The position numbers and the translations under genes are program-made. Positions 7,070 through 42,210 of a stretch of 42,348 nt of DNA are shown in pieces (position 1 is the first letter of the stretch; every line of letters starts with the position of its first letter). The DNA comes from Chloroflexota bacterium. Lineage in GTDB: Bacteria; Chloroflexota; Anaerolineae; DUEN01. Location of the stretch: contig JAADGJ010000041.1 of assembly GCA_013152435.1 (NCBI GenBank), positions 1 through 42,348 on the forward strand, read 5' to 3'. Below the pieces are notes generated by a model that saw only the letters and a program-made list of their open reading frames with translations, was not told the DNA's origin and made no database searches.

Positions 7070-7106
7070 GGGAGTTCCTCTCTCGGTTGTCACGTAAGGA
7101 GCGACT

Positions 7107-7119
7107 CAACGGGTCGCCC
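7107..7119. repeat. Direct-repeat copy of CAACGGGTCGCCC, left of foldback element A
   Basis: The 13-mer CAACGGGTCGCCC occurs here and again at 7410-7422, either side of the foldback element at 7190-7362. With its upstream GCGAC it makes a poor palindrome; the right-hand copy makes a better one. Confidence 0.55.
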
Positions 7120-7189
7120 TATTCGCATCAACTGAACAGCATGGGCGAGGCTCCCGCTTGTCGCTTCTTCCCTCCACGAGCGGTCGCAC

Positions 7190-7362
7190 CTGAAAGGGGA
7201 GGTGCGGAGGGGCTTCCCCCTCCGCAGAAAGACTCTTTTTCCCGCCCTTTCCCTGCCTGGTTGGGGCTTGGGCCGGTGGCCTCTGGCCCCACGGGGCAGG
7301 TGAAGGCCTGAAAATAGATTTCTTCGGAGGGGCGGCAGCCCCTCCGAGCCACCCCAGAGGTG
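7190..7362. mobile_element. Foldback element A (MITE-like intergenic repeat)
   Basis: About 170 nt built as an imperfect large inverted repeat with a small hairpin in each half. The left half has AGGGGAGGTG, hairpin GCGGAGGGG-CTTC-CCCCTCCGC, then GAAA, a CTTTTTC run and CCTGCC. The right half has GGCAGGTG, a run of A, then hairpin CGGAGGGGC...GCCCCTCCG and CCACCCC. The same order is seen at 22489-22656 and 41805-41972. It encodes no protein; the peptides read on both strands are repetitive Gly/Pro/Arg artefacts. MITE, structured RNA or protein-binding element are all open. Confidence 0.6.
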
Positions 7363-7404
7363 TGGGGCCACGCTTCCGTATCGCTGAACTTGATACCAAT
7401 GGGA

Positions 7405-7422
7405 CGACCCAACGGGTCGCCC
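7405..7422. repeat. Palindrome CGACCC-AAC-GGGTCG with CCC, right of foldback A
   Basis: The inverted repeat CGACCC/GGGTCG with loop AAC extends into the second copy of CAACGGGTCGCCC (7410-7422). The core word GGGTCGCCC is also the right arm of the perfect palindrome at 22391-22419. Confidence 0.55.
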
Positions 7423-19102: not shown

Positions 19103-19834
19103 GTGGAGCGGATGCGAGGGTTTGCCGGGTTTCCGGCCGGGAAACTGCGCCAGGTCAAGGTCCCGGAGCTGTTCTTTCAGGAGCTGCTGCCGGTCATTGA
19201 CGACCTGGCGGAGCTGAAGCTGACGCTCTACTGCTTCTGGCGCCTGGTCCGGCAGCGGGGGGAGATTCGCTACCTGCGTCGGGCCGATCTCTTCGCGGAT
19301 GAGCGGTTGCTGGAGGCGCTGGCTGCGACCGGCCGGCCCGCCCAGGAGGCGCTGGCGGAGGCCATCGACCGGGCGGTGGCCCGGGGCACCCTCCTGCGCA
19401 TCTACGTGCGGCGTGAGGGCCATCCCGAGGAGGAGTGGCTTCTCATGAACACCGCCCGCAGCCGCGAGATCGTCTCGTGCATCCGGCGCGGCGACACCAC
19501 CGATCTAGAGGAGCTGCTGGCGTCGGAGGAGGTCACACACCTGCGCGCCGAACGGGCGAACATCTTCAACCTGTACGAGCAGAACATCGGCTTGCTTCAG
19601 CCGTTGATCGCGGATGAGCTGAGGGAGGCGGAGCAGACCTATCCGCCCGAGTGGATCGAGGAAGCCTTCCGCGAGGCGGCGCGAATGAACAAGCGCAGCT
19701 GGCGATACGTGCGGGCCATCCTGGAGCGGTGGGCCGCCGAGGGGAAGGACGATGGAATCGCTGAACGAGATTCTGCGGAGGCTCGGCGCCGACGTTACAT
19801 CCCCGACGAATATGCCGACCTCATCGAGCACTGA
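19103..19834 (+). CDS. DnaD-domain primosome protein
   Basis: A 243-residue replication-initiation protein. The N-terminal 130 residues look like a winged-helix region (VPELFFQELLPVIDDLAELKLTLYCFWRL). Residues about 153-212 form the DnaD/DnaB_2 domain (IFNLYEQNIGLLQPLIADELREA...WIEEAFREAARMNKRSWRYVRAILERW). DnaD proteins in Firmicutes remodel DNA and recruit the helicase loader. The start is a GTG at 19103 with AAGGAAGGGG upstream; an ATG at 19112 is an alternative. The last 83 nt overlap the loader gene in another frame, so the two are probably translationally coupled. Confidence 0.85.
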   Translation: MERMRGFAGFPAGKLRQVKVPELFFQELLPVIDDLAELKLTLYCFWRLVRQRGEIRYLRRADLFADERLLEALAATGRPAQEALAEAIDRAVARGTLLRIYVRREGHPEEEWLLMNTARSREIVSCIRRGDTTDLEELLASEEVTHLRAERANIFNLYEQNIGLLQPLIADELREAEQTYPPEWIEEAFREAARMNKRSWRYVRAILERWAAEGKDDGIAERDSAEARRRRYIPDEYADLIEH

Positions 19835-21152
19835 ACCCGAGGTAGATTCCACGGAGAGCTGTCCCATCTGCCACGGCACGGGATGGATCGTTCGGGATGT
19901 CCCGGTCGGCCATCCCGACTTCGGGCGCGCCGTCCCGTGTCGTTGCCGGGCGGTCGAGATCGAGCGGCGGCGCCAGGCCCGGCTGCGGGCGCTCAGCAAC
20001 CTGGATGCGCTGCAGCATATGACCTTCGATACCTTCCTCCCGGAGGGGATCGGGCTTTCGGACGACCGACGGCGCAACCTGCGCGCCGCCTATGACATCG
20101 CCCGGCGCTTCGCCGAACGTCCGGAGGGGTGGCTGTTGCTTCTGGGCGGCTACGGCTGTGGCAAGACCCATCTGGCGGCCGCCATCGCCAACGCCCGCCT
20201 GAGCCAGGGCGATGCGGTGCTCTTCGTCGCCGTCCCCGATCTGCTGGACCACCTGCGCGCCACCTTCAGCCCCGCCAGCACCATCGATTACGACGAGCGC
20301 TTTGAGACCATCCGCCAGGCCCCGTTGCTCGTGCTGGATGATCTGGGCGCGCAGGCCAGCACGCCGTGGGCCCAGGAGAAACTCTACCAGATCTTCAACT
20401 ATCGCTACAACGCCCGCCTGCCCACCGTGATCACCAGCAATCAGCGCCTGGAGGACATCGAGATCCGGGTGCGGTCCCGGCTCTCCGATCCTGCGCTGGT
20501 TCAGATCGTGACCATTCTGGCGCCCGACTTCCGGCGGGCCGGCGTCGAGCAGTTCCAATCCGAGTTGAGCACCCTGGGCCTGCACCGCCATCAGACCTTT
20601 GAGACGTTCGAGTCCCGTGACCAGGAGTTGACGGCCAGCGAGCACAAGAACCTGCAGCGGGCCGTAGCGCTGGCCCGGGCCTACGCCGAGGACCCCAAAG
20701 GATGGCTGGTCTTCACCGGCACCTTCGGCTGCGGCAAGACGCACCTGGCCGCCGCGATCGCGAACCGTCAGATCGCCCTGGGACGCGGCGCGCCGATGTT
20801 CGTCGTCGTGCCCGACTTGCTGGACCATCTGCGCGCCACCTTCAGCCCCGATAGCCTGGTCTCCTACGACAAGCGATTTGAGGAGATCCGCACCGCCCCA
20901 CTGTTGATCCTGGATGACCTGGGCACGGAGAGCGCGACCCCCTGGGCTCGGGAGAAGCTGTTCCAGCTCCTCAACTATCGCTATGTGGCCCAGCTTCCCA
21001 CGGTCATCACCACGTCGGATCCCATCGACCAGGTGGAGCCCCGGCTGCGCACCCGCATGCTGGACACCTCGCGCTGCACGGTCTTCGCCATCGAGGCGCC
21101 CGCATATCACGGCGAGCCCCCTCCACGAAAGCGTAGCCGCCGCCGTCGCTGA
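19752..21152 (+). CDS. Helicase loader with two tandem AAA+ domains (DnaC/DnaI-like)
   Basis: A 466-residue protein that would load DnaB onto DNA. An N-terminal zinc-binding-like region (CPIC at 37-40, CRC at 63-65) is followed by two complete DnaC/DnaI-type ATPase modules. Module 1 has Walker A GGYGCGKT (132-139), Walker B LLVLDDLG (192-199), sensor VITSN and RVRSRLSD. Module 2 has GTFGCGKT (323-330), LLILDDLG (384-391), VITTSD and RLRTRMLD. The modules share long words such as VVPDLLDHLRATFSP, so they arose by duplication. Usual DnaC/DnaI proteins have one module (about 250-310 aa). A basic tail (RKRSRRRR) ends the chain. ATG 19752 has GAGGGGAAGG upstream; ATG 19812 is a weaker option. Confidence 0.88.
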   Translation: MESLNEILRRLGADVTSPTNMPTSSSTEPEVDSTESCPICHGTGWIVRDVPVGHPDFGRAVPCRCRAVEIERRRQARLRALSNLDALQHMTFDTFLPEGIGLSDDRRRNLRAAYDIARRFAERPEGWLLLLGGYGCGKTHLAAAIANARLSQGDAVLFVAVPDLLDHLRATFSPASTIDYDERFETIRQAPLLVLDDLGAQASTPWAQEKLYQIFNYRYNARLPTVITSNQRLEDIEIRVRSRLSDPALVQIVTILAPDFRRAGVEQFQSELSTLGLHRHQTFETFESRDQELTASEHKNLQRAVALARAYAEDPKGWLVFTGTFGCGKTHLAAAIANRQIALGRGAPMFVVVPDLLDHLRATFSPDSLVSYDKRFEEIRTAPLLILDDLGTESATPWAREKLFQLLNYRYVAQLPTVITTSDPIDQVEPRLRTRMLDTSRCTVFAIEAPAYHGEPPPRKRSRRRR

Positions 21153-22309: not shown

Positions 22310-22390
22310 GGGATTAAGGGGAGTATATCGAGGTCACTTCTTCACTATTGATCTTCGCTTAGATAAGGCGACATATGAACCCTGGTTTTC

Positions 22391-22419
22391 GTAAGGGCGA
22401 CCCCCCGGGTCGCCCTTAC
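22391..22419. repeat. Perfect palindrome, 13-bp arms, loop CCC
   Basis: GTAAGGGCGACCC (22391-22403) and GGGTCGCCCTTAC (22407-22419) are exact reverse complements. It lies between the convergent SH3b and AEC genes and about 70 nt before foldback B. The word GGGTCGCCC is shared with the repeats around foldback A. No T-tract follows. Confidence 0.7.
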
Positions 22420-22488
22420 TGAATCCGAAACGAATGACGCGGCCCACATTTCTTTCACCACGCGAAGCTCAATAGCGTCTTAGAGCTC

Positions 22489-22656
22489 CACAAGGGGAGG
22501 TGTGGAGGGGCCCTCCCCTCCACGAAAACCCCGCTTTTCCGGCCTGTACCTGCCCTTCTCGGTCCTTCCCGAAGGGCCCAGGCCGAGGCCAGGCAGGTCG
22601 AGGGCAAAAGAAGGGCTTTTTCCGGAGGGGCTCCGCCCCTCCGGGCCTCCCCACAG
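22489..22656. mobile_element. Foldback element B (MITE-like intergenic repeat)
   Basis: Second copy of the element at 7190-7362, with the same order: AGGGGAGGTG, hairpin GTGGAGGGG-CCCT-CCCCTCCAC, GAAAA, CTTTTC, CCTGCC, GC-rich centre, GGCAGGTCG, AAAAG, hairpin CCGGAGGGGC...GCCCCTCCGG, CCTCCCCACA. The reverse complement of the right half closely resembles the left half. Compared with copy A, the second base pair of hairpin 1 is changed on both arms (C-G to T-A). It lies in a convergent intergenic space, ending about 30 nt before the AEC stop. Confidence 0.6.
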
Positions 22657-22686
22657 CAGAAGCAACGGCACTTCTCAGACACACTC

Positions 22687-23610
22687 TTACATCCCGGCCA
22701 GCATCCCCTTTCCCACCCAGCTGAGGAGCACGGGCATGGTGAGGATGCTCAGCAGCGTGGTGGCGAGGATCACCATCGCCACGTAGCGGGGCTTGCAGTC
22801 GTACTGGGTGGCCAGCACGGCCGTGAACACCGCTGTGGGCGTCCCCCACTGGGTGATGCCCACGATCCGCACGAGCCCCTCCAGCCCCAGGAGGCCGGAC
22901 AGCGCTACCGCCAGCAGGGGGGAGAGCACCAGGCGGATGCCGGTGGCGATCCAGGCGGGCTTCATCTCATCACGGGTATCTATACTGGACAACTGCATCC
23001 CCAGGATCATCATCATGACGGGGACGGCCGCGTTTCCCAGCAGATTGACGGCCCGCATGAGGGGCAGCGGCGGCTCCAGCGCCAGGGCGCGCAGCAGGAT
23101 CGCGGCCACGGTGGCGTAGATCATCGGCACTCGCAGCAACCCCTTCAGCGCCAGCTTCAGATCGGTGTTCCCGCTGGAGGCGATGAGCACCCCCGCCGTG
23201 TTGGCGAAGATGGCGTTGGCCGTGTAGAACAGGACGGCGAGCTGCGATCCCACCTCTCCGAAGGCGAAACGGTTGAGCGGGATCCCGTAGTTGCCATTGT
23301 TGACCAGCACCAGGGTCAGCACGAAGGCGCTGGTCATGGCCCGTTCCCAGCCCAGGATCCGGGCGATGAGCAGCCCCAGGATGAGAAGTGTCGCGACCAT
23401 AGCCAGGAAGAACCCCAGGATCCTCCCCAGGTCCTGCCAGGCGATCTGGATCCGGAACAGGGAGTCGAAGACCAGGGATGGCGTCAGGATGTAGAACGCG
23501 GCTACGGAGAAGGAGCGGCTGTCGATCCCCAGCCGCCGGCGTCCCCACCAGCCGGCTCCGGCGACCAGGAAGATCGGGACCAGGATGTTCCAGAGGACTT
23601 TTAGCAGCAC
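22687..23610 (-). CDS. Auxin efflux carrier (AEC)-family permease
   Basis: A 307-residue membrane protein with about ten hydrophobic segments in the typical 5+5 AEC arrangement. Features are ILVPIFLVAGAGWWGRRRLGID at the start, YILTPSLVFDSLF, NNGNYGIPLNRFAFG and the later PTAVFTAVLATQYD. Bacterial members export or import small organic acids such as malate or malonate; the substrate cannot be read. The start appears to be GTG at 23610 without a strong ribosome site, so it is uncertain. It diverges from arsR. Confidence 0.85.
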   Translation of the reverse strand: MLLKVLWNILVPIFLVAGAGWWGRRRLGIDSRSFSVAAFYILTPSLVFDSLFRIQIAWQDLGRILGFFLAMVATLLILGLLIARILGWERAMTSAFVLTLVLVNNGNYGIPLNRFAFGEVGSQLAVLFYTANAIFANTAGVLIASSGNTDLKLALKGLLRVPMIYATVAAILLRALALEPPLPLMRAVNLLGNAAVPVMMMILGMQLSSIDTRDEMKPAWIATGIRLVLSPLLAVALSGLLGLEGLVRIVGITQWGTPTAVFTAVLATQYDCKPRYVAMVILATTLLSILTMPVLLSWVGKGMLAGM

Positions 23611-29484: not shown

Positions 29485-29518
29485 CCCTGTGTAACTTGAC
29501 AACCGATGACATAGCGCG

Positions 29519-29647
29519 CGCAGAGGTGCTCCAGTGGCCCGGAAGCCCGGAGCACAATGGGGGAAGACCGGTCAAAGTCCGGCGCTGTCCCGCAACTGTA
29601 GCCTGAGCCACTTGGCGGCTCGGGGAGCCAGGATACCCGCCTCTGCG
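29519..29647 (+). ncRNA. Cobalamin (B12) riboswitch
   Basis: An aptamer of about 129 nt. The closing stem P1 is CGCAGAGG (29519-29526) with CCTCTGCG (29640-29647). Next is stem GTGCTCC/GGAGCAC (29526-29532 and 29549-29555). The conserved core contains GGGGGAAGACCGGT, AGTCCGGCGCTGTCCCGC and AACTGTAGCC, and the B12 box is GCCAGGATACCCGCC just before the P1 return. It should lower expression of the downstream gene when adenosylcobalamin or another cobalamin is bound. Confidence 0.9.
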
Positions 29648-29704
29648 TTTGCTCGTCACCACCTTCGAGGCAAAGGGGGCCGAGCGTGCGAGATCGCTTA
29701 TGCC

Positions 29705-41726: not shown

Positions 41727-41804
41727 GACAGACGTTCCAAGAGGGGTGATGTATCCGAAAGGGTGGAAATCCCGCGAGACGGTCCACAACGCTTACCGCA
41801 AGCC

Positions 41805-41972
41805 CACAGGGGGGATCGGAGGGACCTCCCTTCGCCAGGGCATCCCCTTGCCGCCTGGCACCTGCCCTTTCCTGACCTGATTCGGGTAGACGGAGTCGGG
41901 CGAGGCAGGTCAGGGGCGGAAACCAGGCAGTTTCTTATTGAGGAGCCCAGCTCCTCAAGGCTCCCCGCTGCA
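41805..41972. mobile_element. Foldback element C (diverged copy)
   Basis: Third element with the order of copies A and B: ACAGGGGGGAT, hairpin CGGAGGG-ACCT-CCCTTCG (one G-T pair), CCTTGCCGCCTGG, CCTGCCC, centre, GGCAGGTCA, hairpin TTGAGGAGC-CCA-GCTCCTCAA (perfect 9-bp arms), CTCCCCGC. The primary sequence of hairpin 2 has changed from the GGAGGGGC form of A and B, yet both arms changed together, so pairing is kept. Confidence 0.5.
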
Positions 41973-42210
41973 TTTCCGCCGAAAAAGGTGCACGACCAAG
42001 AGGTCATCCACACGTCGGTTCATCACCAGCCGTGTATTGCGGAGAGAGGAGGTGAGACTGGGACAAAGAAAGGTTGATGGCCAAGCTCATCGTGCCCACC
42101 CGCGAATACGGAGAGGGGACGCTGTATGGGCGGAAGGACGGCTTGCCCCTGAATCGGCGGGCGAGGCACACGGATCTCCGGCGGTTCTCTGTGAGCCCGA
42201 TGTCTATACC

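Follow-up and report, generated by a model that had tools for sequence, protein, structure and literature searches.

Bacterial MITEs such as RUP, Correia/NEMIS, QMITE2 and MITEAba12 are gene-less elements of less than 500 bp that have inverted ends, duplicate their targets and are present in many intergenic copies, often with a stable predicted foldback. The usual account treats MITEs as copies of a single transposon that have decayed, with an interior that is disposable and ends that are expected to be conserved. Among insertion sequences, the IS1031 group of IS5 has a target duplication that is exclusively a 3-bp TNA, and ISLrh, a published element of the IS1031 subgroup, has ends beginning GAACCTGTCT... 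and a TNA target. The published ends of the IS1202 family begin 5'-TGT, and its long-duplication group generates duplications of 16-28 bp with no recognisable target. REP and REPIN sequences are tagged palindromes of 20-40 bp linked to a RAYT/Y1 transposase.

The window considered here, that is the whole stretch of 42,348 nucleotides from a Chloroflexota bacterium of the class Anaerolineae, carries three foldback elements that a sequence-only reading, made without database searches, had described as copies of one family. In these elements it is the interior that is conserved and the ends that are exchanged. They are probably non-autonomous MITEs moved in trans, which share a foldback chassis behind at least three unrelated sets of ends.

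Results

Element families and copy number

Each of the three window copies, used as a query against the host genome (G000; a draft MAG of 4.97 Mb in 149 contigs), returned a separate high-copy set, and in flank alignments each set runs on beyond the core into ends of its own. The three stretches are one copy each of families A, B and C, and the single family of the sequence-only reading has to be replaced by three that have unrelated ends and different duplications and share the core alone. The consensus lengths are 257 bp for A, 280 bp for B and 253 bp for C; full units measure 253-281 bp, within the MITE size limit of 500 bp, and have no coding capacity. All open reading frames of at least 120 aa that touch the window copies reach in from the flanks, and the core is foldback throughout.

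The family counts in the host genome are all lower bounds: at least 157 A left ends (with up to 3 mismatches; the reversed pattern gave 0), at least 60 B right ends (reversed-pattern control 0) and at least 40 C matches, some of them partial (40/66 candidates scored). All 150 of the 150 candidates scored with the core covariance model match it at E<=2e-14. The original count of three was therefore a large undercount, and the absence of further copies, which had been named in advance as a refuting outcome, was not borne out. Only 3 of 111 copies lie within a rough gene call, the remainder being intergenic. Plasmid and phage sequences were searched and contained no match to the elements, and exact-pattern scans of genome and viral contigs, a set from which the host is possibly absent, likewise yielded none.

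Two groups of candidates were set aside. Model hits whose ends were not known (L151-L180) were considered as extra families and are mostly diverged or truncated A copies, while L035 and L056, which have A ends and apparently no core, were considered as autonomous elements and are internally deleted copies instead. The core of the latter two is hairpin I fused to part of hairpin III via GGAGGGG repeats, a recurrent inter-hairpin deletion.

Anatomy of the window copies

All features of the window copies are given on the forward strand. The family B unit occupies 7120-7400 (281 bp) and is bounded by the terminal inverted repeats TATTCGCATCAACTGAACAGCA (7120-7141) and TATCGCTGAACTTGATACCAAT (7379-7400). 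Outside these lie the target-site duplications, on the left one of about 22 bp at 7098-7119, the imperfect palindrome GGAGCGACTCAACGGGTCGCCC, and on the right GGGACGACCCAACGGGTCGCCC at 7401-7422. Its cloverleaf core (7190-7359; covariance model E 2e-35) contains, as judged from folding, hairpin I (TGCGGAGGGG-loop-CCCCTCCGCA) at 7203-7226, the inner part of the long middle arm (CCTGCC ... GGCAGG) at 7252-7300 and hairpin III (CGGAGGGGC-loop-GCCCCTCCG) at 7325-7346.

The family A copy is shorter, 204 bp at 22483-22686, with its core at 22488-22656 (E 6e-33) and its right terminal inverted repeat, CGGCACTTCTCAGACACACTC, at 22666-22686. Relative to the 257-bp consensus it appears to have lost about 53 bp of the left sub-terminal region, leaving TTA-GAG-CTCCAC; despite this deletion it is still flanked on both sides by the 3-bp duplication TTA (22480-22482 and 22687-22689), which conforms to the family rule TNA. 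The family C unit, 253 bp at 41745-41997, has its left terminal inverted repeat (consensus GGTAGTGTATCCAAAATGGTGGAAAT) at 41745-41770, its core, more diverged than those of the other two window copies, at 41803-41970 (E 1e-19) and its right terminal inverted repeat at 41972-41997. Its target duplication of about 8 bp lies at 41737-41744 and 41998-42005, with 7/8 positions matching after a 1-base shift of both borders. The sequence-only reading had thus placed the cores correctly, while the mobile units extend further than it had drawn them.

Ends and target duplications

Family A has GAGYGTGTCTGA ends and a 3-bp TNA duplication, family B has ATTSGYATCAA ends and a duplication of about 21 bp that is often a hairpin, and family C has GGTAGTGTATC ends and an 8-bp duplication; the target-site duplications that had been proposed as something to look for are present in every family. 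The terminal inverted repeats match at 15 of the first 26 positions in A (ungapped) and at 20 of 26 in C, and ATTSGYATCAASTKAA stands at each end of B with a 1-base offset. The 3-mers flanking A are identical in 53 of 91 copies, against an expectation of 14.8 and a maximum of 26 in 2000 re-pairings; the signal is essentially limited to a length of 3 bp, and the left flank is TNA in 74 of the 91. Identity between the flanks of C peaks at 8 bp (0.53 vs 0.25 in cross-pairs). A flanking direct repeat of about 21 bp is found in 15 of 18 B copies, its sequence varying among copies and often forming a GC hairpin. Two nested insertions serve as empty-site comparisons. In one, an A copy (L019) bordered by TCA at either end interrupts hairpin III of a C element; in the other, a B copy (L074) interrupts hairpin III of an A element, the 21-bp hairpin being duplicated.

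Comparison of the ends between families gave similarity z-scores of 1.2 (A/B), 3.5 (A/C) and 0.6 (B/C) for the left ends and of 0.7, 1.2 and -0.6, in the same order, for the right ends. Given the weak likeness of their left ends (z 3.5), the end sets of A and C may not be fully independent.

Short palindromes of the GTAAGGGCGACCCCCCGGGTCGCCCTTAC type, variable in their inner sequence, occur at 22391-22419 of the window and in the flanks of B copies; they are likely to form a repeat class of their own and to be the sites into which family B usually inserts. The sequence TCTTCGCTTAGATAA, at 22351-22367 of the window, is also found near A and B copies, to the left of B copy L082 and, inverted, to the right of A copy L154, and is possibly yet another end type.

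Homology and fold of the core

Behind their unrelated ends and three kinds of duplication, A, B and C have a homologous core in common. The cores, about 165-170 nt in the family consensuses, are 61-70% identical between families and align with z-scores of 9-12 when dinucleotide shuffles are the reference and of 12.7-13.5 when base shuffles are; an alignment no better than that of shuffled GC-rich sequence, the other adverse outcome that had been envisaged, was not obtained. The alignment is colinear across linkers and bulges, and homology between families starts and stops at the outer stem. The description of each element as self-complementary as a whole was borne out for the cores (z 4.2-6.2).

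Folding of the three window copies individually gave z-scores of -5.4, -5.9 and -3.5 against dinucleotide shuffles, and unconstrained folding of the three consensuses led to one cloverleaf topology, composed of the outer stem GGGGAGG/CCTCCCC, hairpin I, the long middle arm CCTGCC/GGCAGG and hairpin III. A covariance model built from the three consensuses matches the window at the three core intervals given above, in agreement with the common plan that the sequence-only reading had recognised, and its next match has an E of 0.11. Because the model was built from families of these same copies, the strength of the three matches is partly by construction; they indicate that within the window the plan is specific, and the claim of core homology is based on the alignment tests.

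A MAFFT alignment of 63 copies gave a poor fold because the families were out of register, and a model-based alignment was used instead. In the latter, which comprises 74 copies from four genomes, many stem pairs show two or three Watson-Crick types; compensatory changes between families, and between the four genomes, preserve the four core helices. At three loci (L182, L172 and L164) a further repeat, TTTGGCCCTTTGGGTAGCGAAGGGCAGTGCCCTTCGCTACCC..., interrupts the core, within or at the end of A or B copies, and it is probably a fourth mobile family of the same genome.

Near-identical copies of A and of B can differ in the orientation of the apical loops of hairpins I and III, with CTCCG counted 19 times and CGGAG 4 times, and GAAGC 12 times and GCTTC 5 times; one flipped loop was seen in C. 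Flipped loops are expected where hairpins that are extruded or single-stranded undergo strand exchange or template switching, and the process that flips them may also be able to join cores to new ends.

Related genomes

Further copies were found by covariance-model search, as had been proposed, both in the host and among 60 relatives, where cores are present in a genome of the same genus (G001), one of another genus in the same family (G003) and one of another family in the same class (G021), with best E values of 1e-25 to 1e-18. A fourth end type, D (CTGCAYTTAA.CGTGGT), is borne by copies in G021 and G003 and probably also by one copy (L223) in G001. The core tree sorts by end type: A of G001 is nested in A of the host genome (100/99), D of G003 groups with D of G021 (100/98), and B of G001 groups with B of the host. 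The association of core and ends was therefore in place before the species separated and, in the case of D, before the genera did.

One copy in G001 (L198) departs from this pattern. Its left end is C-type (alignment score 27; shuffled maximum 13) and its core B-type (score 61, against 35 for A and 31 for C), which on these alignment scores identifies it as a recombinant with a C-type left end joined to a B-type core. Diverged cores at L186, L189, L200, L205, L207 and L211 (in G001, G021 and G003) have ends that could not be placed in types A to D, and further end types may exist.

A class-wide scan of 396 genomes, with 7 candidates scored per genome, produced no convincing further relative, and at that depth of scoring the distribution of the core may be wider than the scan indicates. 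Weak matches in families f10, f50 and f57 were rejected as relatives, being foldback repeats of different sequence. GC-rich multi-hairpin foldbacks of the form CCCCTCCCCTCTCCCG...CGGGAGAGGGG (L233, L234 and L240, in class relatives G266 and G394) have a partly similar plan and unconvincing homology.

Transposases

No autonomous element with A, B or C ends was found in a search that covered four Pfam transposase families in draft MAG data. In the host genome PF01609 gave one solid hit only, PF13586 and rve gave none and Transposase_mut gave one fragment; across four genomes the last three families were almost absent. Multi-copy IS are often lost in MAG assembly, and for this reason, as well as the restriction of the search to four families, the absence of a transposase is weak evidence. 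An IS that adjoins an A end at L182 was considered as an autonomous partner and rejected; it has a DDE_5 transposase and other ends (TTAGCTCGACTTTGTAC), and is merely adjacent.

The window also encodes, at 19752-21152 (+), a 466-aa protein made of two IstB/DnaC-like AAA+ ATPase halves, the gene containing an internal 228-nt repeat that is 74% identical. IstB is the helper of IS21; as the genome yielded no rve transposase, the protein is more likely a duplicated DnaC-like loader. A Cobalamin riboswitch (RF00174, 69.9 bits) lies at 29507-29658 (+). A cytochrome b encoded in the window has its closest named relatives, at identities of up to 70%, in Chloroflexi and Anaerolineae MAGs, which places the genome in Chloroflexota and probably in the class Anaerolineae.

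Discussion

Alternative explanations

The sequence-only reading had left the choice between a MITE and a structured-RNA element, and its first half is upheld by the inverted repeats, duplications, copy number, non-coding character and intergenic location of the elements. A functional structured RNA, regulatory or small, dispersed in many copies would be in keeping with a fold that is strong, conserved and compensated, and with the excess of G.T over A.C mismatches, both across genomes (275 vs 152, in a model-based alignment that favours G.U) and at A-T stem pairs within families (156 vs 70). However, single changes at G-C stem pairs within families are near-symmetric (G.T 242 vs A.C 201), loops occur in both orientations, and the copies bear the scars of transposition. 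Moreover, the genes flanking the copies stand in all arrangements without orientation or strand bias, no family among the Rfam covariance models matches the elements, and the window B copy, when scanned, had no terminator or promoter; a terminator role for the element was rejected, given that no T run follows the hairpins. Thus, an RNA gene is not supported, and a functional structured RNA is very unlikely. Compensated double changes within families are few (33 cells), and divergence is 0.05-0.10 in stems and 0.05-0.14 in linkers, stems being the less diverged of the two in A and C, though not in B; hairpin-templated repair could be an alternative source of matched stem changes. It is concluded that decay is the usual fate of individual copies, whereas source lineages retain the fold; DNA-level selection for propagation is the likeliest candidate reason.

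The sharp limits of the homology could also be read to mean that the core is an independently mobile foldback, with ends GGGGAGG/CCTCCCC, that was inserted separately into three unrelated MITEs. More specifically, inter-family homology is bounded by the outer stem, and in some A copies the left end, immediately beyond the core, is missing. Such nesting is nonetheless unlikely, as no solo core with a target duplication of its own was recognised, the right A end is mostly retained in A copies truncated close to the left of the core, and the TTA-flanked window A copy looks like a normal A copy that has lost an internal segment; the clustering of cores by end type across genomes also makes the association an old one. 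A mere likeness of GC-rich palindromes, with cores that have no common descent, might be entertained in view of the GC-rich foldbacks of somewhat similar plan in other Anaerolineae, but it is scarcely credible against colinear cores with z-scores of 12.7-13.5, a single covariance model that finds all families, and matches in the genomes of relatives at E down to 2e-25.

A probable shared chassis with exchanged ends

Under the preferred explanation, that of non-autonomous MITEs with a shared foldback chassis, the unit of about 250-280 bp is built as terminal inverted repeat, short sub-terminal arm, core of about 165 nt, second sub-terminal arm and second terminal inverted repeat. Each family would be mobilised in trans by a DDE-type transposase of its own, the putative A enzyme being of the IS5/IS1031 kind, the B enzyme one whose cuts in hairpins lie about 21 bp apart and the C enzyme one that yields 8-bp duplications. 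Before the genera diverged, recombination at the GC hairpins would have joined the core to new ends, and the core may have been kept since copies with a DNA foldback propagate better, and not for any service to the host by each copy. A more speculative extension, which is advanced only tentatively, is that the cloverleaf is a selfish DNA chassis that captures the ends of active transposons, from at least three and probably four systems in several genera, the folded DNA itself (e.g. on the lagging strand) aiding mobilisation or tolerance. The conserved interior and exchanged ends make it testable whether a folded non-coding DNA module can be the persisting unit, and with what contribution. The preference of family B for hairpins and its duplication of about 21 bp suggest that its transposase spaces its cuts, and chooses its targets, in an unusual way.

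Comparison with known systems

Family A resembles IS5/IS1031, and ISLrh in particular, in its 3-bp TNA duplication and in its inverted repeat (GAGCGTGTCTGA beside GAACCTGTCTAG), a likeness that concerns the printed end letters only; unlike those elements it has a foldback core as its interior. Family B shares a long duplication of about 21 bp with the IS1202 group, but its ends are TATTCGC / ATTGG and it enters hairpins; because the 5'-TGT ends are missing, it is not filed in the IS1202 family. Family C is placed in no IS family. REP, REPIN, BIME and GTAG palindromes are likewise GC-rich, intergenic and high-copy, and are known in Chloroflexi too. The present elements are far larger and have long inverted repeats and duplicated targets, so that neither their unit size nor their targets fit a REP or REPIN, and the short palindromes of this genome are instead the targets of B. 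TIMEs, the mosaic miniature elements derived from Tn3, are similarly non-autonomous and able to form mosaics by recombination. Tn3 elements have Tn3 ends and 5-bp duplications, both of which are absent here.

The closest likeness in general form is to bacterial MITEs of the RUP, Correia/NEMIS, QMITE2 and MITEAba12 type, which are AT-rich whereas the elements described here are GC-rich. A search of mostly open-access literature brought up no account of MITEs in Anaerolineae, nor of any conserved foldback core with exchangeable unrelated ends. The MITEs compared here are each defined by a single end type, in contrast to the one cloverleaf core with three or four unrelated end sets found here. 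MITEs are a known kind of element; a conserved core behind at least three, and probably four, unrelated sets of ends appears to be new.
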